Source: Paenirhodobacter populi (lineage in GTDB: Bacteria; Pseudomonadota; Alphaproteobacteria; Rhodobacterales; Rhodobacteraceae). From it: a stretch of 64,000 nucleotides of DNA. The translations under genes were made by a program, and so were the position numbers. This document shows positions 14,248 to 31,663 of this stretch, in pieces. Within the stretch, counting starts at the first letter, position 1; every line of letters starts with the position of its first letter. The stretch is from NCBI RefSeq assembly GCF_004022215.1, contig NZ_SAUZ01000003.1, positions 248,001 to 312,000 on the forward strand, in the 5' to 3' direction. The notes beneath the pieces are model-generated. The model worked only from the letters and a program-made list of their open reading frames with translations. It had not been told where the DNA came from and did no database searches.

Positions 14248-14568
14248 TCACAGCAGCGAAAGCCCGTTGCGGGTGATGCAGCTCAGCGTGTCGGGACGCT
14301 TCGCGATGGTCATCACCGTGTTCACGGTATCCGCATCCACCCCGACGACCGCCCCGCGCGAGATCGAGTAGATCTCGGACATCGAGGCGTTGTCGATGAT
14401 GCAATCGGTGACGGGGGCGGCATTCACCCCCGGCATCTTCTGCGCGACGACGGAATTGACCACGGATTTCGCCTGACCGCGGGCGATGGCCTCGGGGCTG
14501 AGCCCGGTGCCGCCCATGGTGCAGGCCGAAAGCGCGGCCGCCGCCGTCAGGATTCCAAAGGCGCGCAT
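14248..14568 (-). CDS. Small lipoprotein between sdhA and sdhB (first of two)
   Basis: 106 residues: signal [16 protein letters not shown] with lipobox LSAC (Cys16), then a mature domain with two cysteines (TDCIIDNAS and LSCITRNG) that could pair. Its ATG overlaps the sdhA stop by one base (TGATG), so translation is coupled to sdhA. No known domain is recognised. Position inside sdh suggests membrane or periplasmic support of the complex or simple co-regulation; this is inference only. Confidence 0.8.
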   Translation of the reverse strand: MRAFGILTAAAALSACTMGGTGLSPEAIARGQAKSVVNSVVAQKMPGVNAAPVTDCIIDNASMSEIYSISRGAVVGVDADTVNTVMTIAKRPDTLSCITRNGLSLL

Positions 14569-16376
14569 CAGTAGACGCGGGCCTTCGGCGCGATCTTCTT
14601 CAGGTCGATGCCGCCTTCGTCGAAAGGCGTCAGCGGGTCGATATGCACCGGCCGGTAGCTGAGCTCGACCGTCGTGTCCTGCACCCGCATGATCGAATGC
14701 TTGCGCCAGTTCACGTCGTCGCGGTTCGGATAATCCTCATGCGCATGGGCGCCGCGGGATTCCTTGCGCGCCTCGGCGCCGACGATGGTGGCCAGCGCGC
14801 TCGGCATCAGGTTGGTCAGCTCGAGCGTCTCCATCAGGTCGGAGTTCCAGACGAGCGAGCGGTCCGTGACCTTGATGTCGTTCATCTTGGCCGCCACGGC
14901 GGTCATCTTCTCCACGCCCTCGGCCAGCGTCTTGTCGGTGCGGAAGACGGCGGCGTCGGACTGCATGGTCTTCTGCATTTCCAGCCGCAGTTCCGCCGTC
15001 GGCGTGCCGCCACCGGCATAGCGCAGCCTGTCGAACCGCTCGAACACCTTGTCGATCGCGGCCTTGTTCGGGGTCGGGATCGCCTTTGCCCGGTCGATCA
15101 CCTCGCCCGCGCGGATCGCCGCTGCACGGCCGAACACCACGAGGTCGATCAGCGAGTTCGATCCCAGACGGTTCGCCCCGTGGACCGAGGCGCAGCCCGC
15201 CTCCCCCACCGCCATCAGGCCGGGAACGATGTTGTCCGGGTTGTCGGAGGTCGGGTCGACCACCTCGCCCCAGTAGTTCGTCGGGATGCCGCCCATGTTG
15301 TAGTGGACGGTCGGCAGCACCGGGATCGGTTCCTTGGTCACGTCGACACCGGCAAAGATCCGCGCCGATTCCGAAATGCCCGGCAGGCGTTCATGCAAAG
15401 CCTCGGGCGGCAGGTGGCTGAGGTTCAGGAAGATGTGGTCCTTGTGCTCGCCCACGCCGCGGCCTTCGCGGATCTCGATGGTCATGCAGCGCGACACCAC
15501 GTCGCGCGAGGCCAGATCCTTGTAGTGCGGCGCGTAGCGTTCCATGAACCGCTCGCCTTCCGAGTTGGTCAGATAGCCGCCCTCGCCGCGCGCGCCCTCG
15601 GTGATCAGGCAGCCCGAGCCGTAGATGCCGGTCGGGTGGAACTGCACGAATTCCATGTCCTGCAGCGCAAGGCCCGCCCGCGCCACCATCCCGCCGCCGT
15701 CGCCGGTGCAGGTATGCGCCGAGGTGGCCGAGAAATAGGCGCGGCCATAGCCGCCCGTCGCCAGCACGACCATCTTGGCCGCGAAGACGTGGAAGGTGCC
15801 GTCGTCGAGCTTCCAGCACAGCACGCCTTCGCAGGTCTTGCCGTCCTCGCTCATCAGCAGGTCGATGGCGAAATATTCGATGTAGAATTCCGCGTTGTTC
15901 TTCAGCGACTGGCCATAGAGCGTGTGCAGGATGGCGTGGCCGGTGCGGTCGGCCGCGGCGCAGGTGCGCTGCACGGGCGGGCCTTCGCCGAATTCGGTGG
16001 TGTGGCCGCCGAAGGGACGCTGGTAGATCTTGCCTTCCTCGGTGCGCGAAAACGGCACGCCGTAATGTTCCAGCTCATAGACCGCGGCCGGGGCGTGACG
16101 GACCAGATATTCCATCGCATCGGTATCGCCGAGCCAGTCGGACCCCTTCACGGTGTCGTAAAGGTGCCATTGCCAGTTGTCCGGCCCCATGTTCGACAGC
16201 GAGGCGGCGATGCCGCCCTGCGCCGCCACGGTATGCGAGCGCGTCGGGAAGACCTTGGTCACGCAGGCCGTGCGCAGCCCCTGTTCCGCCATCCCCAGCG
16301 TCGCGCGCAGCCCGGCGCCACCCGCGCCGACCACCACCACGTCGTAATGATGGGTTTCATAAGTATAAGATGCCAT
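14568..16376 (-). CDS. sdhA: Succinate dehydrogenase flavoprotein subunit
   Basis: 602 residues, the catalytic subunit oxidising succinate to fumarate with covalent [18 protein letters not shown] is the dinucleotide fold. The flavinylated His is in [11 protein letters not shown]. Substrate-site segments include [10 protein letters not shown], the HPTG near residue 245 and [11 protein letters not shown]. The C-terminal fumarate-reductase domain ends with KARVY. It lies between sdhD (15-bp gap) and a lipoprotein gene (1-nt overlap). Confidence 0.98.
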
Positions 16377-16802: not shown

Positions 16803-17201
16803 TCAGATCACGGCGACGATGATGATCGTCAGGACCGTCAGCACGGTGGCGCCGATGAAGCAGGCCCAGCCCAGCTTCTCGGCCGTCTCGATTTCAAGGC
16901 CGTGGCCGGCGTCGAAGTAGAGGTGACGCAGACCGGCCAGGAAGTGATACCAGACGGCCCAGGCCGAAAGCGTGTAGAGCAGGTCGCCGAACCACGAGGT
17001 CGCGATCGCGTTGACGAAGTCGAAGTAGCCGGGGCTCGTCGCGGCGGCCAACAGCCACCACGCGGTCAGCAATACCGTGACGATCAGTGCATTCCCCGTG
17101 ATCCGCGTCGTGATCGACGAGATCGAGGTCATCTGCGGACGGTAATACGGGCCGATCATGAAGGGGGAAAGGGGCCGTTCAACCCGTTTCGTTTCAGCCA
17201 T
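16803..17201 (-). CDS. sdhC: Succinate dehydrogenase cytochrome b556 subunit C
   Basis: 132 residues from MAETKRVERPLSPFMIGPYY. The RPLSP start, SITTRITG and the heme-ligand region HFLAGLRHLYFDAGHG are SdhC hallmarks, with three TM helices. It anchors SdhAB and binds heme b with SdhD. The open frame extends to 17465, but the upstream part is AT-rich leader containing paired operators. First gene of the operon. Confidence 0.95.
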   Translation of the reverse strand: MAETKRVERPLSPFMIGPYYRPQMTSISSITTRITGNALIVTVLLTAWWLLAAATSPGYFDFVNAIATSWFGDLLYTLSAWAVWYHFLAGLRHLYFDAGHGLEIETAEKLGWACFIGATVLTVLTIIIVAVI

Positions 17202-17367
17202 TTTGGGTCCCTCTGTCGCTAAGCCCAAGCACGCGCCTGTCAGGGCGCGGCGCGGTCTGGGCTGGCCGGAATATCTGTCCCTCAATAGCGCATATTTCCG
17301 GCAAGTCACGACCACAGTTTGGCGAAACTGACCTTTGCGCGGGCGGAAAAGGCAAAAAACATCATTC

Positions 17368-17396
17368 GTGATCACAAAAAATCTGCCAGTGATCAC
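17368..17396. promoter_or_regulatory. Paired GTGATCAC operators upstream of sdhC
   Basis: Two perfect 8-bp palindromes GTGATCAC at 17368-17375 and 17389-17396, centres 21 bp apart (two helical turns), about 170-195 bp before the sdhC start in a 290-bp intergenic stretch. The same pair with the same spacing precedes sucC. The flanks CGTGATCACAAA and AGTGATCACAT resemble FCD-GntR half-sites. Confidence 0.75.
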
Positions 17397-17491
17397 ATGT
17401 TGGCGCTCACACGAATCACCAAGATTTTTTGTCGGATTTGCGCAGGCAACGCGACCGATCGTCACGAGGGGAATCGCCTTCCGCGCCCGCC

Positions 17492-17698
17492 CTACTGTTC
17501 GCCGAGCTTCATGTCCGGGCTGTATTCCTTGCCCGGAACCTCCTTGGTCACCGCCTGCGCGCAGCGCATCACGCCGCGCGCGCCATCGAAGGCATAGGAC
17601 GGCGATCCGTAGAGATCCCAGCCCTTGGCGATGGCCAGCGAAACCTTGTGGCAGAAGGCCGAGGTGTCATCCTCGGTCAGCAGACGATAGATCTTCAT
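17492..17698 (-). CDS. DUF1737 family small protein
   Basis: 68 residues from MKIYRLLTEDDTSAFCHKV, with KGWDLYGSPSYAFDGARGVMRCAQAV. The LxGxPS core is that of DUF1737, a widespread cytosolic family of unknown function. It starts 4 nt after the nnrU stop, so the two are cotranscribed. A start 19 codons upstream would overlap nnrU and is not supported. Confidence 0.85.
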   Translation of the reverse strand: MKIYRLLTEDDTSAFCHKVSLAIAKGWDLYGSPSYAFDGARGVMRCAQAVTKEVPGKEYSPDMKLGEQ

Positions 17699-17702
17699 CT
17701 TG

Positions 17703-18254
17703 TCACCCGAATACCGGATAGCCGAGCAGCCCATGCACCCCGGCGATCGCTCCATATACGACGACGGTGCCCAGCACCGCCATCCCTTCCATCTTCGGCC
17801 CGGACTTGCGCGGGACGGGCGGCGTCCAGCGCGGTTCGGCCCGGTTGATCAGCACCATTTCCAGAACCGCCCAGAGGCCCAGCCCGCCGAACAGCACGAA
17901 GCTGGGCGTGTCGCCGTTCACCAGCAGATGCGCCACCGCCCAGATCACCACCCCGGTCAGCATCGGATGGCGATACCGCCGCGCGAAGGCGGTTTTCATC
18001 CCCGAGGCGGCAAAGCAATAGACCGCCGCCAGCATCAGCAGGTTGTTGATCCCCGCCAGCGCCGGCGTCCGGCCCCAGTAGAATTCGCCGAACCAGCCGC
18101 GATAGCCGATCACCATCAGCACCACGCCGAGCGTCACGATCACCGCCGTCACCGGCCGCTCGGCGCCCTTCAGCGTTTCGCTGAAGCCGGGGATCAGCCG
18201 GCGCGCCAGATGCCCGAAGGCCCAGAGCAAAAGACCGAGGATCAGAAGTGCCAT
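17703..18254 (-). CDS. NnrU family membrane protein
   Basis: 183 residues with about six hydrophobic helices. RYRHPMLTGVVIWAVAHLLVNGD is the characteristic NnrU/isoprenylcysteine-methyltransferase-like segment, and the start MALLILGLLLWAFGHLARRL is typical. NnrU was first linked to nitrite/NO reduction in Rhodobacter, but many members lie outside denitrification loci, as here between the malyl-CoA enzyme and DUF1737. The function in this context is unknown. Confidence 0.88.
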   Translation of the reverse strand: MALLILGLLLWAFGHLARRLIPGFSETLKGAERPVTAVIVTLGVVLMVIGYRGWFGEFYWGRTPALAGINNLLMLAAVYCFAASGMKTAFARRYRHPMLTGVVIWAVAHLLVNGDTPSFVLFGGLGLWAVLEMVLINRAEPRWTPPVPRKSGPKMEGMAVLGTVVVYGAIAGVHGLLGYPVFG

Positions 18255-18282
18255 GAGGTTGCCTTTCAGCTGCCGGCCCGGT

Positions 18283-19152
18283 TCAGGTCATTTCGGCAAT
18301 CGCCTTCGCCTTGGCGATCAGTTGCCGTGCCGTGACGATATGCAGGTTTTCGACGATTTTACCATCCACCACGGCGACGCCCTGCCCGCGCGCCTTCACC
18401 GCCTCGAAGGCGGCGATCTGGCGTTCGGCCAATTCCAGCTCGGCCGGGGTGGGCGCAAAGGCCGCATTCGCCGCGGCCAGCTGGGCGGGATGGATCAGCG
18501 TCTTGCCGTCAAATCCCATGTCGCGCCCCTGCTCGCATTCGGCGCGCAGCCCCTCTTCATCCGTGAAGGCAGTGTAGACACCATCGAGGATCACCTTGCC
18601 ATAGGCCTTCGCCGCCAGCAGGCACAGCCCCATCCCCGTCAGCAGCGGCAGCCGGTCGGGGCGATGGCGCCCCTGCAACTCCATCGACAGGTCGTTGGTG
18701 CCCATCACCATCCCCTCGAGCCGCGGGTGCGAGGCGATATCCGCCGCGTTCAGCACCCCGATCGCGGTTTCCACCATCGCCCACAGCGGCAGCGCCGAGG
18801 TCAGGTCCACCACCGCGTCCAGATCCTTCTTGAAGGATACCTTCGGCATCAGCAGCGCGTCGATGCGCACGCCGGCATGGACCGCATCCGCAAGCGCCAG
18901 CACATCCTCACGCCCCCACGGCGTGTCTAGCCCGTTGGCCCGCACGATCCGCAGCCGCGCTCCGTAATCGTATTGCGCCAGCGCCGACAGAACGCCCGCC
19001 CGCGCGGAGGCCTTTTCCTCCACCGTCACCGCATCCTCGAGATCGAAGATGATCGCGTCGCAGGGAAGTCCGGCCGCCTTTTCCAGCGCCCGCGGCTTCG
19101 ACCCGGGGATATAGAGCGCCGAACGGCAGGGGCGATCCGCTCCGTGAGCCAT
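18283..19152 (-). CDS. HpcH/HpaI-CitE family lyase or (3S)-malyl-CoA thioesterase
   Basis: 289 residues from MAHGADRPCRSALYIPGSKPRAL. The CitE-fold TIM barrel is shown by RSALYIPGS, the metal-binding DLEDAV, the substrate Arg in LRIVRANGLDTPWG, MPKV, and MVETAIGV. The position between nnrU and mdh matches R. sphaeroides mcl2, a (3S)-malyl-CoA thioesterase of the ethylmalonyl-CoA pathway (as I recall it). It could instead be a malyl- or citramalyl-CoA lyase; eye inspection does not decide. Divergent from mdh across 216 bp. Confidence 0.85.
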   Translation of the reverse strand: MAHGADRPCRSALYIPGSKPRALEKAAGLPCDAIIFDLEDAVTVEEKASARAGVLSALAQYDYGARLRIVRANGLDTPWGREDVLALADAVHAGVRIDALLMPKVSFKKDLDAVVDLTSALPLWAMVETAIGVLNAADIASHPRLEGMVMGTNDLSMELQGRHRPDRLPLLTGMGLCLLAAKAYGKVILDGVYTAFTDEEGLRAECEQGRDMGFDGKTLIHPAQLAAANAAFAPTPAELELAERQIAAFEAVKARGQGVAVVDGKIVENLHIVTARQLIAKAKAIAEMT

Positions 19153-19185
19153 GATTCTCTCCTTGCGACAAAGGTCCCCCTCTAG

Positions 19186-20331
<1,146 letters not shown>

Positions 20332-20337
20332 CCCTTG

Positions 20338-20361
20338 GGGCGCGCCACGGCGCGCCCTTTT
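20338..20361 (+). terminator. mdh terminator
   Basis: GGGCGCGC-CACG-GCGCGCCC followed by TTTTCC, 7 nt after the mdh stop. Confidence 0.85.
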
Positions 20362-20457
20362 CCATGCGCGTGCCCGCCGCCGCGGACCGCCGCGACGCTT
20401 CCCCTGCGTCAACAGACTCGGCGTGAGAGGCCCCGAATCCTCCATTGCTCCGCGTTT

Positions 20458-20486
20458 GTGATCACGGCTGCGAAGGGTGTGATCAC
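20458..20486. promoter_or_regulatory. Paired GTGATCAC operators upstream of sucC
   Basis: GTGATCAC at 20458-20465 and 20479-20486, centres 21 bp apart exactly as before sdhC, with outward flanks TTTGTGATCAC and GTGATCACAAA forming a larger dyad. They lie about 112-140 bp upstream of sucC, after the mdh terminator, in the presumed sucCDAB-lpd promoter. Confidence 0.78.
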
Positions 20487-20597
20487 AAATGTCGGTTTTC
20501 CGCCGATCCTGCGGCATTACACACAATATTCGTTTTATCGTCCGGTCAGACTGTGCCAAACCAGTCGCCGAAATCGTACCAGGAAGGGAAGTCTGGC

Positions 20598-21791
20598 ATG
20601 AACATTCATGAATATCAGGCAAAACAGCTTCTGAAGAGCTACGGCTGCCCGGTGTCGAACGGCCGCGTCGTTCTGAAGGCAGAGGAGGCCAAGACCGCCG
20701 CGGGCGAGCTTGACGGACCGCTGTGGGTGGTGAAGGCACAGATCCACGCCGGCGGCCGCGGCAAAGGCCATTTCAAGGAACCGGAAGCGGGCCCGAAGGG
20801 CGGCGTCCGTCTGGCAAAGTCGGTGGAGGAGGCCGCCGAACTCGCCCGGCAGATGCTTGGACGCACCCTGATCACCCATCAGACCGGACCGGCCGGCAAG
20901 CAGGTCAACCGCGTCTATATCGAGGAAGGCTCGGACATCGCGCGCGAACTCTATCTCGCGCTGCTGATCGACCGCAAAACCTCGCGCGTGAGCTTTGTCG
21001 TCTCGACCGAAGGCGGCATGGACATCGAGGAAGTCGCCGCCCATACCCCGGAAAAGATCCTGTCCTTCTCGGTCGATCCGGCGACGGGGCTGTCGGATTT
21101 CCACGGCCGCCGGGTCGCCTTCGCGCTCGGCCTGCAGGGCGGGCAGGTGAAGCAATGCGTGGCGCTGATCCGCAATCTCTACAAGGCCTTCATCGAGAAG
21201 GACATGGAGATGCTGGAGATCAACCCGCTGATCGTCACCCCGGAAGGCAATATCAAGGTGCTCGACGCCAAGCTGGGCTTCGACAACAACGCGCTCTATC
21301 GCCATCCCGACATTCAGGACCTGCGCGACACCACCGAGGAAGACCCGAAAGAGCTTGAAGCCTCGCGGTTCGACCTGAACTACATCGCCCTCGACGGCGA
21401 GATCGGCTGCATGGTGAACGGCGCCGGGCTGGCCATGGCGACGATGGACATCATCAAGCTCTACGGCTCGAACCCGGCGAACTTCCTTGATGTCGGCGGC
21501 GGCGCCACCCGCGAAAAGGTCACCGAGGCGTTCAAGATCATCACCTCGGACCCGAACGTGAAGGGCATCCTCGTCAACATCTTCGGCGGCATCATGCGCT
21601 GCGACATCATCGCCGAGGGCATCATCGCCGCGGTGAAGGAAGTCGGGCTGAAGGTCCCGCTGGTCGTGCGTCTCGAAGGCACGAACGTCGCGCTTGGCAA
21701 GGAGATCATCGCGAATTCCGGGCTGAACGTGATCGCGGCGGACGATCTGGGCGATGCTGCGCAGAAGATCGTCAAGGCAGTGAAAGGCTGA
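20598..21791 (+). CDS. sucC: Succinyl-CoA synthetase beta subunit (ADP-forming)
   Basis: 397 residues from [16 protein letters not shown]. The ATP-grasp fold contains [18 protein letters not shown], the metal-ligand region LEINPLIV with [15 protein letters not shown], and the C-terminal [15 protein letters not shown] and [10 protein letters not shown]. With SucD it converts succinyl-CoA to succinate with substrate-level phosphorylation. The open frame runs to 20445 through the operator region; MNIHEYQ is the universal SucC start. First gene of sucCD-lipoprotein-sucAB-MAPEG-lpd. Confidence 0.97.
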
Positions 21792-21795
21792 GACC

Positions 21796-22683
21796 ATGGC
21801 TATCCTGATCAACGAAAACACCAAAGTCATCTGCCAGGGCCTGACCGGCTCGCAGGGCACCTTCCACACCGAACAGGCGATCGCCTACGGCACCAAGATG
21901 GTCGGCGGCGTGACCCCCGGCAAAGGCGGGACCGAGCATCTGGGCCTGCCGGTGTTCAACTCGGTCCACGAGGCCGTGGCCAAGACCGGCGCCGATGCGA
22001 CGGTGATCTACGTGCCGCCGCCCTTCGCGGCCGACTCGATCCTCGAGGCGATCGACGCGGAGATCCCGCTGATCGTCGCCATCACCGAGGGCATCCCGGT
22101 GCTCGACATGATGAAGGTGAAGCGCGCGCTGATGGACAGCAAGTCCCGCCTGATCGGGCCGAACTGCCCCGGCGTGATGACCCCCGACGCCTGCAAGATC
22201 GGCATCATGCCCGGCTCGATCTTCAAGCGCGGTTCGGTCGGCGTCGTGTCGCGTTCGGGCACGCTGACCTATGAGGCGGTGAAGCAGACGACGGACATCG
22301 GCCTTGGCCAGTCCTCGGCCGTGGGTATCGGCGGCGACCCGATCAAGGGCACCGAGCATATCGACGTGCTGGACATGTTCCTTGACGATCCGGAAACGGA
22401 ATCGATCATCATGATCGGCGAGATCGGCGGCTCGGCCGAGGAAGACGCGGCCGAATTCCTGATCGAACAGAAGAAGAAGGGCCGCTGGAAGCCGGTCGCG
22501 GGCTTCATCGCGGGCCGCACGGCGCCTCCGGGCCGCCGCATGGGCCATGCGGGCGCCATCGTCTCGGGCGGCAAGGGCGACGCCGGGTCGAAGATCGAGG
22601 CCATGCAGCGCGCCGGGATCGTCGTCGCGGAAAGCCCCGCCTCGCTCGGCGAAGCCGTGCTGAAGGCGATCAAGGGCGAATGA
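21796..22683 (+). CDS. sucD: Succinyl-CoA synthetase alpha subunit
   Basis: 295 residues from [21 protein letters not shown]. The Rossmann CoA-binding domain has [12 protein letters not shown] and [15 protein letters not shown]. The phosphorylated catalytic His251 lies in [28 protein letters not shown] and [15 protein letters not shown] are also diagnostic. It starts 4 nt after sucC. Confidence 0.98.
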
Positions 22684-22691
22684 GAAACAGG

Positions 22692-22714
22692 GGCCGCGGG
22701 CATGACCCGCGGCC
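22692..22714 (+). other. Intra-operon hairpin between sucD and the lipoprotein gene
   Basis: GGCCGCGGG-CATGA-CCCGCGGCC, a perfect 9-bp stem 9 nt after the sucD stop, with no U-run. It may slow decay of the sucCD message or partly terminate, giving different sucCD and sucAB-lpd levels. Confidence 0.6.
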
Positions 22715-22795
22715 TCGCGAAAGCGCCGGGCAGGTTTGCGAACCCGTCCTGCCCTTTCAGGGAAGTCCGGCCATACCGGCCGCGGAGGTTAGGCA

Positions 22796-23167
22796 ATGAA
22801 ACGTGTTATCCCGGTTCTCGCGGTATCCGCCCTGATGCTTGGCGGCTGCGCGATGGAAATGCCGGGCGTCACGGCGGGCGAGGCCGGGGCCCAGCACCCG
22901 CTTGCGCCTCCGGTTCCGCAGAACGTGCGGGCCCATGCGCTGTGGCAGAAGCAGACCGGCATCAACGGCGATTCCATCGCCGCGATCGGCGGAGACACCA
23001 GCCAGGCCTATATCTATTACGACCCGATCGTCGCGAACCAGGCCGCGCTTGCCGCCGCGCCGGCGAAGCTCTGCGCCAGTTACGGCAAGCAGCTGGCCTC
23101 TTCCTACACGACCCTGCCGCAGGATGGCGAACCCGGCGTCAAGGTCATCGCAGTGACCTGTCACTGA
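22796..23167 (+). CDS. Small lipoprotein between sucD and sucA
   Basis: 123 residues. The signal MKRVIPVLAVSALMLGGC has a good lipobox (LGGC, Cys18). The mature part contains KQTGINGDSIAAIGGDTSQAYIYYD and two further cysteines (KLCASYG and VTCH at the C-terminus). No domain recognised. Its place inside the suc operon parallels the two lipoproteins inside sdh. Function unknown. Confidence 0.85.
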   Translation: MKRVIPVLAVSALMLGGCAMEMPGVTAGEAGAQHPLAPPVPQNVRAHALWQKQTGINGDSIAAIGGDTSQAYIYYDPIVANQAALAAAPAKLCASYGKQLASSYTTLPQDGEPGVKVIAVTCH

Positions 23168-23206
23168 ACTCTTTCCCGGCCCCAGCCACTTTCAAGGACG
23201 AACTCC

Positions 23207-26164
23207 ATGAATGACCAATCCCCAAACGAACAGTTCGAAGCGTCCAGCTTCCTGCAGGGCGCGAATGCGGATTACGTCGAGCAGCTTTACGCGAATTACG
23301 CCCGGGACCCGGCCTCGGTCGATGCGAGCTGGCAGGCGTTCTTCGCCTCGCTCGGTGACAGCGGGGCGGATGCAGAACATGCCGCCGAGGGCGCGTCCTG
23401 GGCGCGCAGCGACTGGCCCCCGGTTCCGGGCGGCGAGATCATGGGCGCGCTGACCGGCGAATGGCCCGTCGTTCCCGCCAAGGAAACCAAGGCCGCCGGC
23501 GACAAGATCAAGGCGAAGGCCGCTGAAGCCGGCGTGCAGGTGTCCGAGGAACAGGTGAAACGCGCCGTCCTCGATTCCGTGCGCGCGATCATGATCATCC
23601 GCGCCTACCGGATCCGCGGCCACCTGATCGCCAACCTCGACCCGCTGCGGATGCGCGACGAACGCAACCACCCGGAACTCGACCCGCACAGCTACGGCTT
23701 CACCGAGGCCGACATGGACCGGCCGATCTTCATCGACAACGTGCTGGGCATGACCCACGCCTCGATGCGGCAGATCGTCGACGTGCTGAAGCGCACCTAT
23801 TGCGGCACCTTCGCGCTGCAATACATGCACATCTCGGACCCGGAACAATCCGCCTGGCTGAAGGAACGGATCGAGGGCTACGGCAACGAGATCGCCTTCA
23901 CCCGCGAAGGCCGCCGCGCCATCCTCGACAAGCTGGTCGAGGCGGAAGGGTTCGAGAAATTCCTGCACGTCAAATACATGGGGACGAAGCGTTTCGGCCT
24001 TGATGGCGGGGAATCGCTGATCCCGGCGATGGAACAGATCATCAAGCGCGGCGGTGCGCTTGGCGTGAAGGAAATCGTCATGGGCATGCCGCACCGCGGC
24101 CGCCTGTCGGTGCTGACCAACGTTCTGGGCAAGCCCTACCGCGCGATCTTCAACGAATTCCAGGGCGGTTCCTACAAGCCGGACGAAGTCGAAGGCTCGG
24201 GCGATGTGAAATACCACCTCGGCACCTCTTCGGACCGGACCTTCGACGGCAACACCGTCCACCTGTCGCTGGTGGCGAACCCCTCGCACCTCGAAGCGGT
24301 GGATCCGGTCGTCCTCGGCAAGGCCCGCGCCAAGCAGGACCAGCTCAACGATACCGACCGCACCATGGTCCTGCCGATCCTGATGCACGGCGACGCGGCC
24401 TTTGCGGGTCAGGGGATCGTGGCGGAATGCTTCCAGCTTTCGGGGATCCGCGGCCACCGCACCGGCGGTACGATGCATATCATCGTGAACAACCAGATCG
24501 GCTTCACCACGGCGCCGCACTTCTCGCGCTCCTCGCCCTATCCGACGGATATCGCCCTGATGGTCGAGGCGCCGATCTTCCACGTCAACGGCGATGACCC
24601 GGAAGCCGTGGTCCATGCCGCGCGCGTCGCGGTGGAATTCCGCCAGAAGTTCCACAAGGACGTGGTCATCGACATCTTCTGCTATCGCCGCTTCGGTCAC
24701 AACGAAGGCGACGAGCCGATGTTCACCAACCCGATCATGTACAAGCAGATCAAGGGCCACAAGACGACCCTTCAGCTCTACACCGACCGGCTGGTGAAGG
24801 ATGGCCTGATCCCGGAAGGCGAGATCGAGGACATGAAGGCCGCCTTCCAGGCGAAGCTGAACGAGGAATTCGAGGCCGGCAAGACCTATCGCCCGAACAA
24901 GGCCGACTGGCTCGACGGCAAATGGACCGGCCTGACGCCCGAAGGCGCCGATTACACCGCCGGCGATACCTCGATCAGCCCGGAAACCTTCGCCGAGGTC
25001 GGCCATGCGCTGGTCACCGCGCCGAAGGATTTCGACCTGCACAAGACGGTCGCGCGCAACCTCGAGAACAAGAAGAAGATGTTCGAGAGCGGCAAGGGCT
25101 TCGACTGGGCGACCGGCGAGGCGCTGGCCTTCGGCAGCCTTCTGGCCGAGGGCTTCCCGGTGCGCCTGTCGGGCGAGGATTCGGCGCGCGGCACCTTCTC
25201 CCAACGCCATTCGGCGCTGGTCGACCAGACGACCGAGGATCGCTACTACCCGCTGAACCACATCAAGCCGGGTCAGGCGCGCTATGAGGTCATCGACTCG
25301 GCCCTGTCGGAATATGCGGTCTGCGGGTTCGAATACGGCTATTCGCTGGCCGAACCCAATGCGCTGACCCTGTGGGAAGGCCAGTTCGGCGACTTCGCCA
25401 ACGGCGCGCAGATCATCTTCGACCAGTTCGTGTCCTCGGGTGAATCGAAATGGCTGCGGATGTCGGGGCTCGTGCTGCTGCTGCCGCATGGCTACGAAGG
25501 TCAGGGGCCGGAACATTCCTCGGCGCGGCTGGAACGCTATCTGCAGATGTCCGCGCAGGAAAACTGGATCGTCGCCAACTGCTCGACCCCGGCGAACTAC
25601 TTCCACATCCTGCGCCGGCAGCTCAAGCGGACCTTCCGCAAGCCGCTGGTGCTGATGACGCCGAAATCGCTGCTGCGCCATCCGATGTGCGTGTCCTCGG
25701 CCGAGGAATTCACCACCGGCTCGATCTTCCATCGGGTGATGTGGGACGACGCGCAGCGCGGCACGTCGGAACTGGAGTTGAAGCCGGATGCGGACATCAA
25801 GCGCGTCGTGATCTGCTCGGGCAAGGTCTACTACGATCTGCTGGCCGAACGCGACAAGCGCGGGCTGACCGATGTCTACCTGCTGCGGCTGGAACAGTTC
25901 TACCCGTTCCCGGCGCAGTCGATGACGCAGGAACTGGCGCGCTTCAAGGATGCCGAGATCATCTGGTGTCAGGAAGAGCCCAAGAACATGGGCGCCTGGA
26001 CCTTTGTCGAGCCGAACATCGAATGGGTTCTGGCCCGGATCGAGGCGAAGCATCCCCGCGCCCGCTATGCCGGTCGCTCGGCCTCCGCCTCGCCGGCGAC
26101 GGGTCTGGGCAAGACCCACAAGATGGAACAGGACGCGCTCGTCAACGACGCGCTGGAGGGCTGA
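23207..26164 (+). CDS. sucA: 2-oxoglutarate dehydrogenase E1 component
   Basis: 985 residues of thiamine-diphosphate-dependent decarboxylase, E1 of the 2-oxoglutarate dehydrogenase complex. The N-terminal tail [17 protein letters not shown] contacts E2. [18 protein letters not shown], the ThDP-binding [10 protein letters not shown] and NNQIGFTT, and the transketolase-like C-half ([39 protein letters not shown]) are all present. Length is normal for the family. sucB begins 1 nt after its stop. Confidence 0.98.
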
Positions 26165-26165
26165 G

Positions 26166-27704
26166 ATGACCGACGTTCGTGTGCCCACGCTTGGCGAAAG
26201 CGTGTCCGAAGCCACCGTCGCCACCTGGTTCAAGAAGCCGGGTGACGCGGTCGCGCAGGACGAAATGCTGTGCGAGCTGGAAACCGACAAGGTGACGGTC
26301 GAAGTCCCGGCCCCTGCCGCCGGGACCCTGGCCGAGATCGTCGCGCCCGAAGGCGAGACGGTCGGCGTCAACGCGCTCCTTGCCACGATCACCGAAGCGG
26401 GCGCCGCGGCGCCCGCCCCGCAACCGAAGAAAACCGAAGCCGCGGCCGCGCCCCAGCCGGCCGCGCAAGAGTCCAAAGAGGTCAAGATGACGGACGTGAT
26501 GGTGCCCGCACTGGGCGAAAGCGTGTCGGAAGCCACGGTTTCCACCTGGTTCAAGAAAGTGGGCGACACGGTCGCGCAGGACGAGATGCTGTGCGAACTG
26601 GAAACCGACAAGGTCTCGGTCGAGGTTCCCTCGCCGGTGGCCGGCGTCCTGACCGAAATCGTGGCGCCCGAAGGCGCGACCGTCATGGCCTCGGCGAAGC
26701 TTGCCGTGGTGGCCGAAGGCGCCGCCGGCACCGTCGCGCCGCCCGCGCAGGCACCCGCCGTTTCGCCGGCGGCCGATGTTCCGCCGGTCACCGGCAAGGA
26801 TGTGGAAGACGCCCCCTCGGCGAAGAAGGCGATGGCCGAGGCCGGCCTGTCCGCCGATCAGGTCACCGGCACCGGCCGCGACGGTCGCATCATGAAGGAA
26901 GACGTGGCCGCCGCCGTCGCGAAACCGGCCGCCGCGCCCGTCGCCGCGGCCCCTGCCCCGGCACCCGCCGCCGTGCCGCGCGCCGCAGTCTCCGCCGATG
27001 ATGCCTCGCGCGAGGAACGGGTGAAGATGACCCGCCTGCGCGCCACCATCGCGCGCCGCCTGAAGGATGCTCAGAACACCGCCGCCATGCTGACGACCTA
27101 CAACGAGGTCGACATGTCCGGCATCATGGAGCTGCGCAACACCTACAAGGAGCAGTTCGAGAAGAAGCACGGCGTGAAGCTCGGCTTCATGTCCTTCTTC
27201 GTGAAGGCCTGCTGCCACGCGCTGGTCGAGGTGCCCGAAGTCAACGCCGAGATCGACGGCGGCGACGTCATCTACAAGCATTACGTCCACATGGGCGTCG
27301 CGGTCGGCACGCCGAACGGTCTTGTCGTGCCGGTCGTCCGTGACGCCGACCAGAAGGGCTTCGCCGAGATCGAGAAGGAGATCGCCGCCTACGGCAAGCG
27401 TGCCCGCGACGGCAAGCTGACCATGGCGGACATGCAGGGCGGCTCGTTCACCATCTCGAACGGCGGCGTCTACGGCTCGCTGATGTCCTCGCCGATCCTG
27501 AACCCGCCGCAGTCGGGCATCCTCGGCATGCACAAGATCCAGGAACGTCCGGTCGTCGTGAACGGTCAGATCGTGATCCGCCCGATGATGTATCTGGCGC
27601 TGAGCTACGACCACCGGATCGTCGACGGCAAGGGCGCGGTGACCTTCCTCGTCCGCGTGAAAGAGGCGCTCGAAGATCCGCGCCGCCTGCTGATGGATCT
27701 CTGA
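26166..27704 (+). CDS. sucB: Dihydrolipoyl succinyltransferase E2 with two lipoyl domains
   Basis: 512 residues. Two tandem lipoyl domains: about 1-77 and about 105-180, each with the lipoylated ETDK motif ([13 protein letters not shown] and [13 protein letters not shown]). Ala/Pro-rich linkers follow, then an E1/E3-binding domain ([26 protein letters not shown], about 215-250), then the CoA acyltransferase core with active-site [13 protein letters not shown] near the C-terminus. E. coli SucB has one lipoyl domain, so this is a duplicated arrangement. It starts 1 nt after sucA. Confidence 0.97.
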
Positions 27705-27712
27705 TCCCCGAC

Positions 27713-27732
27713 CCCCGGCGCAAGCCGGGGGC
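27713..27732 (+). other. Hairpin between sucB and the MAPEG gene
   Basis: CCCCCGGC-GCAA-GCCGGGGG followed by CCTTTCTC. A GNRA-type loop with a weak U-tract; a possible partial terminator or stabiliser before the MAPEG and lpd genes. Confidence 0.6.
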
Positions 27733-27750
27733 CTTTCTCTGGAGGACGCC

Positions 27751-28158
27751 ATGACCCCCGAACTGACGGCCCTCGCGATTGCGGCGCTCTGGCAGGTGGT
27801 GATGGTCGGCGCCGCCGGGGCGGTGATGAACCGCGAACTTGGCCCGGCCTTCAACGCCGGCCCGCGCGACCGGATGCCCGAGCCCTCCCCCCTGCTCGGG
27901 CGGTTGCGCCGCGCGGTGAACAACCATGTCGAGAACCTCGGGCTGTTCACCATCGCCGTCGTGGTCGTCACGCTTTCGGGCAAGGCGGGCGGATTCACCG
28001 CCGCCAGTGCCTGGGTGTTCGTCGCGGCACGCGTCCTCTATCTGCCCGCCTATGCCTTCGGCTGGTCGCCCTGGCGTTCGGTGATCTGGATGGTCGGGCT
28101 TCTGGCAACCCTGGCGATGATCTTCGCCGCACTATTCGGGTCCGCAGCGGCGGCCTGA
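27751..28158 (+). CDS. MAPEG family membrane protein
   Basis: 135 residues with four hydrophobic helices (about 5-25, 55-77, 82-100, 105-130). The segment RLRRAVNNHVENLGLF carries the conserved Arg and the ENL/N-H pattern of the MAPEG (eicosanoid/glutathione-linked) superfamily, and RVLYLPAYAFGW matches the last loop. It is embedded between sucB and lpd (12-bp gap). Bacterial MAPEG proteins of this type have no settled function; no link to 2-oxoglutarate dehydrogenase is known to me. Confidence 0.85.
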   Translation: MTPELTALAIAALWQVVMVGAAGAVMNRELGPAFNAGPRDRMPEPSPLLGRLRRAVNNHVENLGLFTIAVVVVTLSGKAGGFTAASAWVFVAARVLYLPAYAFGWSPWRSVIWMVGLLATLAMIFAALFGSAAAA

Positions 28159-28170
28159 CAGGAGAATGAA

Positions 28171-29559
28171 ATGGCTGAATTTGATGTGATCGTGATCGGC
28201 GGCGGCCCGGGCGGCTATGTCTGTGCGATCCACTGCGCCCAGCTGGGCCTGAAGACCGCCTGCGTCGAGGGGCGCGAGGCGCTTGGCGGCACCTGCCTCA
28301 ACGTCGGCTGCATCCCGTCGAAGGCTTTGCTGCACGCGACGCACGAACTGCATGAACTGCATGAGAATTTCGACAAGATGGGGCTGACGCAGGCCTCGGT
28401 GAAGGTCGACTGGAAGAAGATGCAGGCCTACAAGCAGGACGTCATCGGCCAGAACACCAAGGGCATCGAATTCCTGTTCAAGAAGAACAAGATCACCTGG
28501 CTGAAGGGCTGGGGCTCGATCCCCGCGGCGGGTCAGGTCAAGGTCGGCGACGAGGTGCATACCGCGAAGAACATCGTCATCGCCTCGGGCTCCGAACCGT
28601 CGAGCCTGCCGGGGATCGAGATCGACGAGGAAACCGTCGTCACCTCGACCGGCGCGCTGGCGCTGCCGAAGATCCCGAAGTCGATGGTCGTCATCGGCGC
28701 GGGGGTGATCGGGCTGGAAATGGGGTCGGTCTATGCGCGGCTCGGCACGGATGTGACGGTGGTCGAATATCTCGACGCGATCACCCCCGGCATGGACGGC
28801 GAGGTCGCCAAGGCCTTCCAGAAGATCCTGACGAAGCAGGGGCTGAAATTCGTTCTCGGCGCCGCCGTGCAGGGGGTCGAGAAGGGCAAGGGCAAGAACA
28901 CCGTCAAATACAAGCTGCGCAAGGATGAGTCCGAAAACGCGGTCGAGGCGGAAGTCGTGCTCGTCGCCACCGGGCGCAAGCCCTATACGGACGGCCTTGG
29001 GCTTCAGGCGCTTGGGGTCGAGATCCTGCCGCGCGGCCAGATCAAGACCGACGCGCATTGGCAGACCACCGTTCCCGGCATCTATGCGATCGGCGACGCG
29101 ATCGTCGGCCCGATGCTCGCCCACAAGGCCGAGGATGAAGGCATGGCGGTGGCCGAGGTTCTGGCCGGGAAATACGGCCATGTGAACTACGACGTGATCC
29201 CCGGCGTGATCTACACCACGCCCGAAGTGTCCTCGGTCGGCAAGACCGAAGAGGCGCTGAAGCAGGAAGGCCGCGCCTACAAGGTGGGCAAGTTCTCCTT
29301 CATGGGCAACGGCCGCGCCAAGGCCGTGTTCCAGGCCGAGGGCTTCGTCAAGCTGATCGTCGATGCGAACACCGACCGCATTCTTGGCTGCCATATCATC
29401 GGGCCGTCGGCGGGCGAGCTGATCCACGAGATCTGCGTTGGCATGGAATTCGGCGCCTCGGCGCAGGACATCGCGCTGACCTGCCACGCCCATCCGACCT
29501 TCTCGGAAGCGGTGCGGGAGGCGGCGCTGGCCTGCGGGCTGGGCGCGATCCACGCTTGA
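28171..29559 (+). CDS. lpd: Dihydrolipoamide dehydrogenase E3
   Basis: 462 residues. FAD-binding [11 protein letters not shown] at about 10-20; redox-active disulfide C42/C47 in [19 protein letters not shown]-binding [17 protein letters not shown]; interface motif HAHPTFSE with the catalytic His-Glu pair (around 441/446). It reoxidises dihydrolipoamide for the 2-oxoglutarate complex, and may serve other complexes. Last gene of the suc operon, closed by a terminator. Confidence 0.98.
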
Positions 29560-29583
29560 GGGATCGGTCAGGGTTTTTGGGAG

Positions 29584-29612
29584 GGGCGGCTTTCGGGCCG
29601 CCCTTTCGTTTT
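29584..29612 (+). terminator. suc-lpd operon terminator
   Basis: GGGCGGC-TTTCGG-GCCGCCC followed by TTTCGTTTT, 24 nt after the lpd stop. Confidence 0.88.
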
Positions 29613-29635
29613 CGGTGCACCCGCGTCCCGGGCGC

Positions 29636-29704
29636 GGGGGGCTGTCTGCCCCCCGTCGTGGCAAGCCAAGACTCCCCCCGAGGATATTTATGGAAGAATG
29701 AAGG
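29636..29704 (+). repeat. Composite intergenic repeat, copy D
   Basis: GGGGGGC-TGTCT-GCCCCCC (29636-29654), then TGGC-AA-GCCA (29659-29668), then the box with CCCCCCGAGGATATTTATGG (29671-29704). Sits between lpd and the converging thioesterase gene. Confidence 0.8.
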
Positions 29705-29713
29705 AGGCGGGGA

Positions 29714-30214
29714 TCACTTGCCCTCGGCCGCGGCCTTTTCCAACCGCTCGGCGAATTCGCGGCGCAGGCTGCGGCGCACCTCGGCCGCTTTCCAGCGATG
29801 TTTCTGCAATTCGGTCACCGGATCGAGCGGCGGCACCGTCACCGGGCGGCCTTCGTCATCCACCGCGACCATGGTGAAATAGCAGCTGTTGGTATGGCGC
29901 CGGGTGCCGGTGGTGATGTTTTCGGCGTCGACCCGGATGCCGATTTCCATCGAGCTGTGGCCGGTATAGTTGACGGAGGCCGAGAATTTCACCAGCTCGC
30001 CCACATGGATCGGCTGCTTGAACATCACCTGATCGACGCTCAGCGTGACAGCGTAGCAGCGCGAATAGCGCGAGGCGAGCGAGAAGGCCACGCGGTCGAG
30101 CCAGCTCAGCAGCGCGCCCCCATGCACCTTGCCCGAGAAATTCGCCATGTCGGGGGTCATCAGCACCGTCATTTCAAGCTGGCGGCGTTCGTCATCGGTC
30201 AACTGGCTGGTCAT
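29714..30214 (-). CDS. Hotdog-fold acyl-CoA thioesterase
   Basis: 166 residues from MTSQLTDDERRQLEMTVLMTP. The HotDog ACOT-type core has NFSGKVHGGALLSWLDRVAF (catalytic Asp helix), SVDQVMFKQPIHVGELV and RRHTNSCYFTMVAVDDEGRPV. The C-terminal AEVRRSLRREFAERLEKAAAE is helical. Related to YciA-type enzymes that release CoA from acyl-CoAs in the cytosol; the substrate cannot be read from sequence. The frame extends 21 codons upstream without homology. Confidence 0.9.
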   Translation of the reverse strand: MTSQLTDDERRQLEMTVLMTPDMANFSGKVHGGALLSWLDRVAFSLASRYSRCYAVTLSVDQVMFKQPIHVGELVKFSASVNYTGHSSMEIGIRVDAENITTGTRRHTNSCYFTMVAVDDEGRPVTVPPLDPVTELQKHRWKAAEVRRSLRREFAERLEKAAAEGK

Positions 30215-30286
30215 GGGGTCCTTCGGGCCTGTCCCTTGCTTATGGACGCAGATTGCGCACGGGGCGGGGCAGGTCAAGAAGGATGT

Positions 30287-30934
30287 CTATTGGGCGAGAT
30301 GTCGCAGCCCCTGTGTCACATCTATGCGCACGGCGAGGCGCAATCCGGGTTCATCGCCCGCGCGGAGGGCAGCGAGGATAAGCCGGTGATGGCGCGGCGG
30401 TTCGTTGCGGCGCAGCTTGCCATAGAGCGCGCGCATCGTCGGGCCGAGTTGCAGCCACACCGTTTCGGTCACCGCCAGCATCGCCGGGGCCTGCGCCCGC
30501 AGGTAGAGCGTGCGGTGGAATTCCAGATTGGTGCGGATATAGGCGACGGCATCCTGTTTCGCCACCGCCTCGGCATTGGCGGTGTTGATGGCGCTCAGCC
30601 GGTCGATCAGCGCCAGATGCGCCCGCGGCAGCGCGCGGGAGGCGAGTTCGGGCTCGATCAGCGCGCGGAGCGCCGCCAGTTCCTCGATCCGTTCGTTGGT
30701 CAGCTCGGGCGTCGTCACCCGGCCGGAGGAGGAGAGCATCAGCGCCCCCTCGGCGATCAGGCGGCGAAGCGCCTCGCGCACCGGGGTCATGGACAGGTCG
30801 TATTGCCTGGCGAGCGCGCGCAGCGTCAGCGCCTGACCGGGGGGAATCTCTCCGTGCATGATCTGCAGGCGCAGGCTGCGGTAGAGCCGGTCATGGGCGG
30901 CGGTCTCGATCGGGCGGGCGGTGATGGTGGTCAT
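30287..30934 (-). CDS. GntR-family regulator with FCD domain; candidate TCA regulon regulator
   Basis: 215 residues. The N-terminal winged helix at about 10-75 contains LRLQIMHGEIPPGQALTLRALARQ and MTPVREALRRLIAEGAL. The all-alpha FCD ligand domain spans about 85-210, with LRALIEPELASRAL, LEFHRTLY and a late histidine pair (RHHRLILAAL). It lies 72 bp from the thioesterase gene. A GTGATCAC palindrome, the motif paired before sdhC and sucC, lies 8 bp upstream of its ATG. I infer autoregulation and control of those operons. FCD domains usually sense organic acids. R. sphaeroides regulators CceR and AkgR act on similar genes; whether this is a counterpart is not decided here. Confidence 0.88.
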   Translation of the reverse strand: MTTITARPIETAAHDRLYRSLRLQIMHGEIPPGQALTLRALARQYDLSMTPVREALRRLIAEGALMLSSSGRVTTPELTNERIEELAALRALIEPELASRALPRAHLALIDRLSAINTANAEAVAKQDAVAYIRTNLEFHRTLYLRAQAPAMLAVTETVWLQLGPTMRALYGKLRRNEPPRHHRLILAALRAGDEPGLRLAVRIDVTQGLRHLAQ

Positions 30935-30942
30935 GCACCTAT

Positions 30943-30950
30943 GTGATCAC
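30943..30950. promoter_or_regulatory. Single GTGATCAC operator before the gntR gene
   Basis: Perfect GTGATCAC within ATGTGATCACAAC, positioned 9-16 nt upstream of the GntR start, where bound protein would cover the ribosome-binding or start region. A TTGACG hexamer (complement of 30963-30968) lies just upstream as a possible -35. No second copy at 21 bp. Confidence 0.7.
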
Positions 30951-30964
30951 AACCGCCGGGCGCG

Positions 30965-31663
30965 TCAATCGTCGAAGCGGATCGCCTGCAACCCGGCCCC
31001 TTCGGTTTTCAGCCAGGCGCGGTCGGCGGCGTAATCGGGGCGCAGCCGCGCCACCACCGCCCAGAAAGCCGGCGAATGGTTCATCTGCGCCAGATGCGCC
31101 ACCTCATGCGCGGCGACATAATCCAGCACCGAAGGCGGCGCCATGATCAGCCGCCATGAATAGCTCAGCGATCCGTCCTGCGCGCAGGACCCCCAGCGGG
31201 AGCGGGTATCGCGCAGGGTGATCTTGCGGAACCCGCGGCCAAGCGTGGCCGCATGCCGTTCCGTCGCCGCCTGCAGCCGCACCCGCGCGCAATGTTTCAG
31301 GAAGGCGCGCAAAAGCGGACGCAGGCGCGCCTCGTCCCCCGGCAGGATCAGCCGGTCATCCTGCACCTTTGGCGCGCGCACCGCGCCGGGGGTCAGGGTC
31401 AGGGCCTGCCCCTCGAACGGGATCGCCGCGCCGAAGCCGAGCGGCGCCACCTGCGGCACCCGGTCGAGCGCGCGTCTCAGCCAGTCGCTCTGGCTGCGGG
31501 CGAAGGCCAGCGCCTCGTCCAGCGGCGCGCGCAGCGGCAGGGTCAGGATCACCGCCCCGTCGTGACGCGACACCCGCAGGCTGAACCGCCGCGCCCGGGC
31601 GGAGCGGCGCAGCGTCAGCGCCACCTCGGGCAGGTCGGGCAGGATATGGGGGCTGGCGGGCAT
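30965..31663 (-). CDS. YgjP-like (DUF45) zinc metalloprotease
   Basis: 232 residues from MPASPHILPDLPEVAL. LRRSARARRFSLRVSRHDGAVILTLP is the N-terminal strand region; ITLRDTRSRWGSCA is diagnostic; the zinc motif is HEVAHLAQMNHSPAFW with the third ligand after the NHS stretch. YgjP/SprT-related proteins are cytosolic M48-like hydrolases with unsettled substrates. The gntR gene follows 30 bp downstream on the same strand. The very long open frame upstream (to 32236) is opposite TIGR02300 and not coding. Confidence 0.9.
   Translation of the reverse strand: MPASPHILPDLPEVALTLRRSARARRFSLRVSRHDGAVILTLPLRAPLDEALAFARSQSDWLRRALDRVPQVAPLGFGAAIPFEGQALTLTPGAVRAPKVQDDRLILPGDEARLRPLLRAFLKHCARVRLQAATERHAATLGRGFRKITLRDTRSRWGSCAQDGSLSYSWRLIMAPPSVLDYVAAHEVAHLAQMNHSPAFWAVVARLRPDYAADRAWLKTEGAGLQAIRFDD

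Follow-up and report, generated by a model that had tools for sequence, protein, structure and literature searches.

In the 64,000-nucleotide stretch of Paenirhodobacter populi DNA analyzed here (contig NZ_SAUZ01000003.1, positions 248,001 to 312,000; hereafter the window), the genes of succinate dehydrogenase (complex II, sdh), the sucCD-sucAB-lpd genes of the 2-oxoglutarate/succinyl-CoA segment of the tricarboxylic acid (TCA) cycle and the gene of an FCD-type GntR regulator share copies of the palindrome GTGATCAC, which raises the question of whether these copies belong to one regulatory system and of the rule by which they would work. An earlier, sequence-only reading of this DNA had proposed that the GntR protein controls both TCA blocks through paired sites and represses itself through a single one. 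According to the present analysis, this set of sites and genes is very probably an AkgR-type regulon, in which paired sites would activate sdh and sucCD-sucAB-lpd and a single site would mediate self-repression.

Six exact copies of GTGATCAC occur in the window (starts at 17368, 17389, 20458, 20479, 30943 and 33156), compared to a mean of 0.82 in shuffled sequences, none of 100 shuffles reaching six. The sequence-only reading had placed two pairs with an identical 21-bp spacing before sdhC and sucC, one copy 8 bp upstream of the GntR start and only one other copy, inside ccmF; all these positions hold, the sixth copy falling within a CcmF/NrfE gene (32268-34226). The two pairs are the only ones with a gap of 8-20 bases in the window, where none is expected, and also in the whole genome (4,777,466 bases, 91 contigs), as found by the scan that the same reading had called for. 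The paired sites start 195 and 174 bp 5′ of the sdhC ATG (17201, minus strand) and 140 and 119 bp 5′ of the sucC ATG (20598); the suc-lpd genes are co-directional, with sucC first. When up to three mismatches are allowed, 83 places of the genome carry a 21-bp pair, the next best after the two exact ones being three with two mismatches. The bare 8-mer has 90 copies genome-wide; therefore, a single copy is weak evidence, and the bare form was dropped as a genome-wide marker. By contrast with the bare form, the form flanked by two T, TTGTGATCAC, occurs only four times (proximal sdhC site, both sucC sites and gntR site) and is thus confined to three promoters. The signal is carried by the 21-bp pair and by TTGTGATCAC rather than by the bare 8-mer. 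Alignment of the outer flanks gives an operator TTGT-GATC-ACAA with four middle bases (full form about TTTGTGATCACAAA), which fits TNGT-Nx-ACNA, the consensus operator form of FCD-type GntR regulators.

Conservation was assessed on stretches of at most 19.9 kb beside the regulator in 60 of 120 genomes and on 80 named scan loci, a sample selected through the regulator, irrespective of the motif. A gene was scored only if the stretch contained it together with 260 bp or more of its upstream region: many of the 141 regulator loci hold neither sucC nor sdhC in the stretch, and the sucC count leaves out six of 40 loci with a shorter upstream region, plus those with a cut-off sucC start. Two sets fetched mostly for having pairs (L228-L247 and L271-L290) stand outside these counts, the former being included in the operator-flank alignment and in the searches for sdhC and sucC promoter elements. 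This comparison of orthologous promoters, another check named by the sequence-only reading, revealed a 21-bp pair before sucC in 34/34 loci and before sdhC in 20/21, the remaining one (L127) carrying a pair with one mismatch. All 57 pairs with a spacing in the 18-24 range have exactly 21 bp, while the distance from pair to start varies (97-130 bp for sucC and 120-193 bp for sdhC). This nearly invariant spacing agrees with the proposed binding on one DNA face. Pairs with a spacing of 20 occur in three genomes (G002, G238 and G369), as exceptions to the 21-bp rule. Cereibacter sphaeroides, whose sdhC and sucC genes also bear 21-bp pairs (L039), has three copies of TTGTGATCAC, as does a same-genus genome (G115), all on the sucC and sdhC pairs; another genome of the family (G088) has seven, of which one is at sucC, one at gntR, one unplaced 6.6 kb from sucC and four on other contigs.

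Some loci carry additional sites. In L041, L124 and L136, sucC is preceded by three GTGATCAC sites at successive 21-bp spacings rather than by two, and an additional copy lies 26 bp upstream of the sucC array in L136 and L143. In five loci (L068, L085, L091, L111 and L130), an extra exact copy precedes the sdhC pair by 86-139 bp and may be a remote third site. Outside the family, close pairs were found in only nine of 285 genomes of the class, with spacings of 18-27, so that the pair is not common to the class at large. One genome of another family (G520; L178:992-1020) has a 21-bp GTGATCAC pair immediately 5′ of a different gene, GntR-like as judged by eye; the operator geometry may therefore be older than its TCA role.

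Of the 121 genomes of the order, 120 hold a match to the regulator at an E-value of 1e-20 or better, that of G110 reaching only 46% identity. The family survey (295 genomes, 294 genera) revealed a close pair in 267 genomes, compared to one for a reversed-pattern control. With orthologues called at an E-value below 1e-70 against the window protein, 260 genomes have both regulator and pair, 23 neither, seven the pair only and five the regulator only. Presence or absence thus agrees in 283 of 295 genomes (Fisher p 1.7e-23, uncorrected for kinship). A cut at 1e-50 would move three genomes (G150, G227 and G365) and give 261, 21, six and seven, respectively. Among the 28 genomes devoid of close pairs, 22 have a usable sucC upstream region (320 bp searched), three have a paralogous or partial sucC (G140, G250 and G267) and three none (G227, G256 and G271). 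Both of the usable ones that have the regulator (G157 and G372) show one mismatch in the 21-bp pair before sucC; among the 20 lacking the regulator, none comes closer than three mismatches in 16 and 18 have five to seven. One of the genomes without an AkgR orthologue at the cut, G258 (L213), displays 138 bp before sucC a decayed pair (one and three mismatches, spacing 21), likely a relic of loss. In a SucC tree of 76 rows, from which L208 (G372) is absent because its best match was below the required length, the regulator state changes at least seven times and the pair state six times. Under midpoint rooting, several genomes that lack the system fall outside the remaining ones; some absences may thus be primary rather than losses.

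The pairs also keep a defined position relative to the downstream sequence. At sdhC, a motif of 28 bases, with CGTGAC close to its front, begins 54-57 bp past the pair in 29 of 35 loci, 44-45 bp in four and 75-76 bp in two. At sucC, a C-GTTT element lies 40-42 bp past the pair in 37 of 54 loci and 30-31 bp in 11, with one locus each at 62, 44, 19, 25, 54 and 56 bp; it was found without a position prior after masking the 16 bases next to the pair and the 22 bases immediately 5′ of the start, a first motif search having returned the operator's own flank only. The minority classes lie one helical turn nearer or two turns farther, with residuals under 1.5 bp at 10.5 bp per turn; for the six sdhC loci, such a phasing has a chance of about 6e-4 if shifts are taken as uniform and with a tolerance of our own choosing. 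Some of the loci in these sets had been fetched because of their pairs, but none because of its phase. In a further 20 genomes, chosen for holding two close pairs (second set), the modal distances recur: the sdhC motif is at 57-60 bp in 15 and at 15 bp in one, with no element in four, and the sucC element lies at 40-42 bp in 13 of 19 (two scoring under 4), at 31 bp in one and elsewhere in five (scores of 4.6 or less). These distances are suggestive of activator sites kept on one DNA face, at a fixed helical phase to the promoter element. The window pairs stop well ahead of the conserved promoter-like elements, with 41 bp in between at sucC and 58 bp at sdhC; a position so far upstream agrees with activator sites.

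Which protein would use these sites? The window regulator carries an N-terminal GntR winged helix (PF00392, 1.8e-14) and a C-terminal FCD domain (PF07729, 1.1e-17), both above the gathering score. The FCD-GntR proteins McbR/YncC, PdhR and LldR have the same domain pair but other targets, and PdhR and LldR operators follow the form TGGT-N3-ACCA. Among proteins of solved structure, McbR matches the sequence best (4p9f, 6.9e-20). The eight matches to NCBIfam equivalogs (PdhR/CsiR and other GntR) are all far below their cut-offs, and a structure model of the protein was too weak (predicted template modelling score 0.44) to be used. Among named relatives, the scan places Sinirhodobacter hankyongi closest (92%); it may omit near copies of the genome to which the window belongs. 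C. sphaeroides 2.4.1 (G094) has, among the best 25 of 47 candidates, one match at an E-value of 1e-20, with 83% identity; a stretch of one contig of G094 matches C. sphaeroides plasmids at 100%, including NZ_CP030274 of strain 2.4.1. The match to the window protein lies just past sdh, in the gene order lpd-sucA-sucD-sucC-mdh-sdhC-sdhD-sdhA-(further frames)-gntR. From its position beside sdh in the RSP_0962 to RSP_0981 numbering, this match appears to be RSP_0981, which we take to be AkgR.

The available part of PMC4344238 lists RSP_0967-6, RSP_0974-6 and RSP_0965-62 (succinyl-CoA synthetase, succinate dehydrogenase and 2-oxoglutarate dehydrogenase) as predicted targets of RSP_0981, and that of PMC6365646, citing Imam 2015, describes AkgR of Rhodobacter (Cereibacter) sphaeroides as an activator with GTGATCAC among its binding sites. 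By orthology, the window would therefore hold the AkgR (RSP_0981) regulon previously described in R. sphaeroides: the activator role, the motif and the predicted target list come from this literature on the orthologue, and the regulon was in this respect already known. The control of complex II and of the 2-oxoglutarate segment by the GntR protein, as the sequence-only reading had it, is thus not new; this protein is likely to be the one that uses the sites, given the co-occurrence in 295 genomes and the shared gntR site, and activation would be the likely sign. The two systems are alike in predicted target operons and motif but differ in that the C. sphaeroides akgR gene lies beyond sdh and has no self-site, whereas the window gntR lies beyond lpd and has one. 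Another GntR-like protein, PS417_07240 of the deoxyribonate cluster of Pseudomonas simiae, has likewise been proposed to use GTGATCAC, in this case in front of its own cluster; it differs by its 32% identity to AkgR, by a catabolic cluster instead of the TCA cycle and by the single motif copy mentioned (PMC6365646, available part). The accessible parts of the literature on AkgR, RSP_0981 and GntR control of the TCA cycle hold no statement on the 21-bp pair, the helical phasing or the self-site over the -10; the primary AkgR paper lies outside this coverage, and we do not claim that these features are unreported. PMC3849096 has nothing on the sites, nor has the available part of PMC12352068 (one GntR row). 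The text of PMC5343134, which reports other sdh regulators in Shewanellaceae, mentions neither AkgR, SdhR nor succinate dehydrogenase, and PMC11323563, PMC7471390, PMC4419725, PMC5507952 and PMC8557541 have AkgR in their reference lists only.

Of 141 loci, 91 carry an exact site no more than 60 bp 5′ of the gntR start. The consensus of the 87 distinct sites is TTGAC followed, after about 12 bases, by the operator, which would therefore cover the expected -10 of gntR. The self-repression through a single site that the sequence-only reading had proposed fits this geometry but does not extend to all loci: 50 of the 141, including those of Cereibacter, Pseudotabrizicola and Gemmobacter, have no self-site. 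Autorepression is thus likely at the window gntR and not general. Seven loci (L039, L114, L116, L124, L129, L134 and L136) have no self-operator upstream of gntR and keep the sdhC or sucC pairs where these are seen; autoregulation seems separable from the rest of the system.

Table 1. Positions of the operators, promoter-like elements and genes in the window
Feature	Position	Strand	Basis	Remark
Paired sdhC operator, two GTGATCAC	17368..17396	-	motif count and conservation	centres 21 bp apart
GTGACT, -35-like element of sdhC	17304..17309	-	conserved	58 bp past pair; putative -35
sdhC, cytochrome b556 subunit	16803..17201	-	TIGR02970	heads sdh block
sdhA	14568..16376	-	TIGR01816	
Paired sucC operator, two GTGATCAC	20458..20486	+	motif count and conservation	centres 21 bp apart
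Promoter-like sucC element (C-GTTT, about 18 bases, TGTG)	20528..20555	+	conserved	41 bp past pair; putative function
sucC	20598..21791	+	NF001913	heads suc-lpd block
sucA, 2-oxoglutarate dehydrogenase E1	23207..26164	+	NF006914	
lpd	28171..29559	+	TIGR01350	
FCD-GntR regulator, AkgR orthologue	30287..30934	-	PF00392 and PF07729	83% identity to C. sphaeroides protein
Single gntR operator	30943..30950	-		ends 8 bp 5′ of gntR ATG (30934)
TTGACG, likely gntR -35	30963..30968	-		operator begins 12 bases on, over expected -10; presumed role

In the mechanism that we propose, the FCD-GntR protein would bind GTGATCAC as a dimer. Upstream of sdhC and of sucC, two dimers would sit exactly two helical turns apart on the same DNA face, possibly in a cooperative manner, and this dimer pair, kept in a constant rotational register with the promoter, would activate complex II and sucCD-sucAB-lpd. 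A single dimer over the expected -10 of gntR would repress the regulator's own gene, giving a negative feedback. The inducing signal would be, at a guess, a TCA intermediate. A broader statement can be made, to which we give even chances: one regulator would use the same 8-base core with opposite signs according to the number and place of the sites, two phased dimers two turns apart activating complex II and the 2-oxoglutarate/succinyl-CoA segment and one dimer over the -10 repressing itself; this would apply to most of the family, in which the system would come or go as a whole, and in the genome of the window the regulon would be closed, with three promoters in 4.8 Mb.

Several points weigh against such an AkgR-type regulon. 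By hand count, 48 of the 267 pair-bearing genomes show one exact pair only. The orthologue cut was set after the data had been seen, and the scoring considered at most the best 10 first-look candidates per genome. The pair occurs without a found orthologue in G138, G150, G203, G221, G343, G350 and G358, where either a gap in the assembly or a different protein may account for it; five of these genomes are at most 91% complete, but G221 and G343 are given as 100% and 93% complete and have an exact pair before sucC. The three well-supported comparisons in the tree, too few to reach significance, change in the same direction in 2.9 on average (p 0.25). The phasing relies on six of 35 sdhC and 12 of 54 sucC loci and leaves out five sucC loci (offsets 19, 25, 44, 54 and 56), most of them out of phase; the second set adds one minority case for sucC and none for sdhC. 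Moreover, the promoter-like elements are deduced from conservation and are not mapped start sites. One locus (L246, in G369) has a single copy before sdhC; in R. capsulatus, a pair was placed at sucC and none at sdhC, and its second pair, spaced 27, is close to none of the genes looked for. The loci devoid of a self-site count on the same side.

Many FCD-GntR proteins are repressors, and the self-site sits where a repressor would block; the protein could therefore repress sdh and suc and be released by a TCA acid. We consider this improbable, since both pairs stop short of the promoter-like elements, away from the position where RNA polymerase would be blocked, and since the orthologue is called an activator in the available part of PMC6365646. 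Activation at sdh and suc is the most likely sign. The sites could also serve another regulator with the same core, for example an FCD-GntR paralogue (about 40% identical among the matches listed), the neighbouring gene being a bystander. The seven genomes with a pair and no found orthologue, the distant GntR-like gene of L178 with its own 21-bp pair and the core proposed for a protein as remote as PS417_07240 (PMC6365646, available part) speak for it; the agreement between pair and AkgR orthologue across the family and the flanked operator that the pairs share with the regulator's own promoter in the window genome make it an even slimmer prospect than repression. It is hardly credible that the palindromes reflect chance or another use such as coding bias: the bare core is indeed frequent in the genome, but the spacing is fixed in every regulator-chosen pair, the pair is absent together with the regulator and it is rare in the class outside the family.

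Overall, the link between the sites, the TCA genes and the GntR protein is real and mostly known; the sites are, judging from the sequence comparisons, very probably docking sites of this protein, and their strictly kept geometry is worth testing. With it, activation by an FCD-GntR protein can be put directly to the test, and the exact operator rule can be used for locating the AkgR system. Some 20 genomes without regulator and sites indicate where the unregulated state can be studied. Furthermore, the 295-genome comparison supports the view that AkgR is, in this family, the regulator dedicated to complex II and to the 2-oxoglutarate/succinyl-CoA block.

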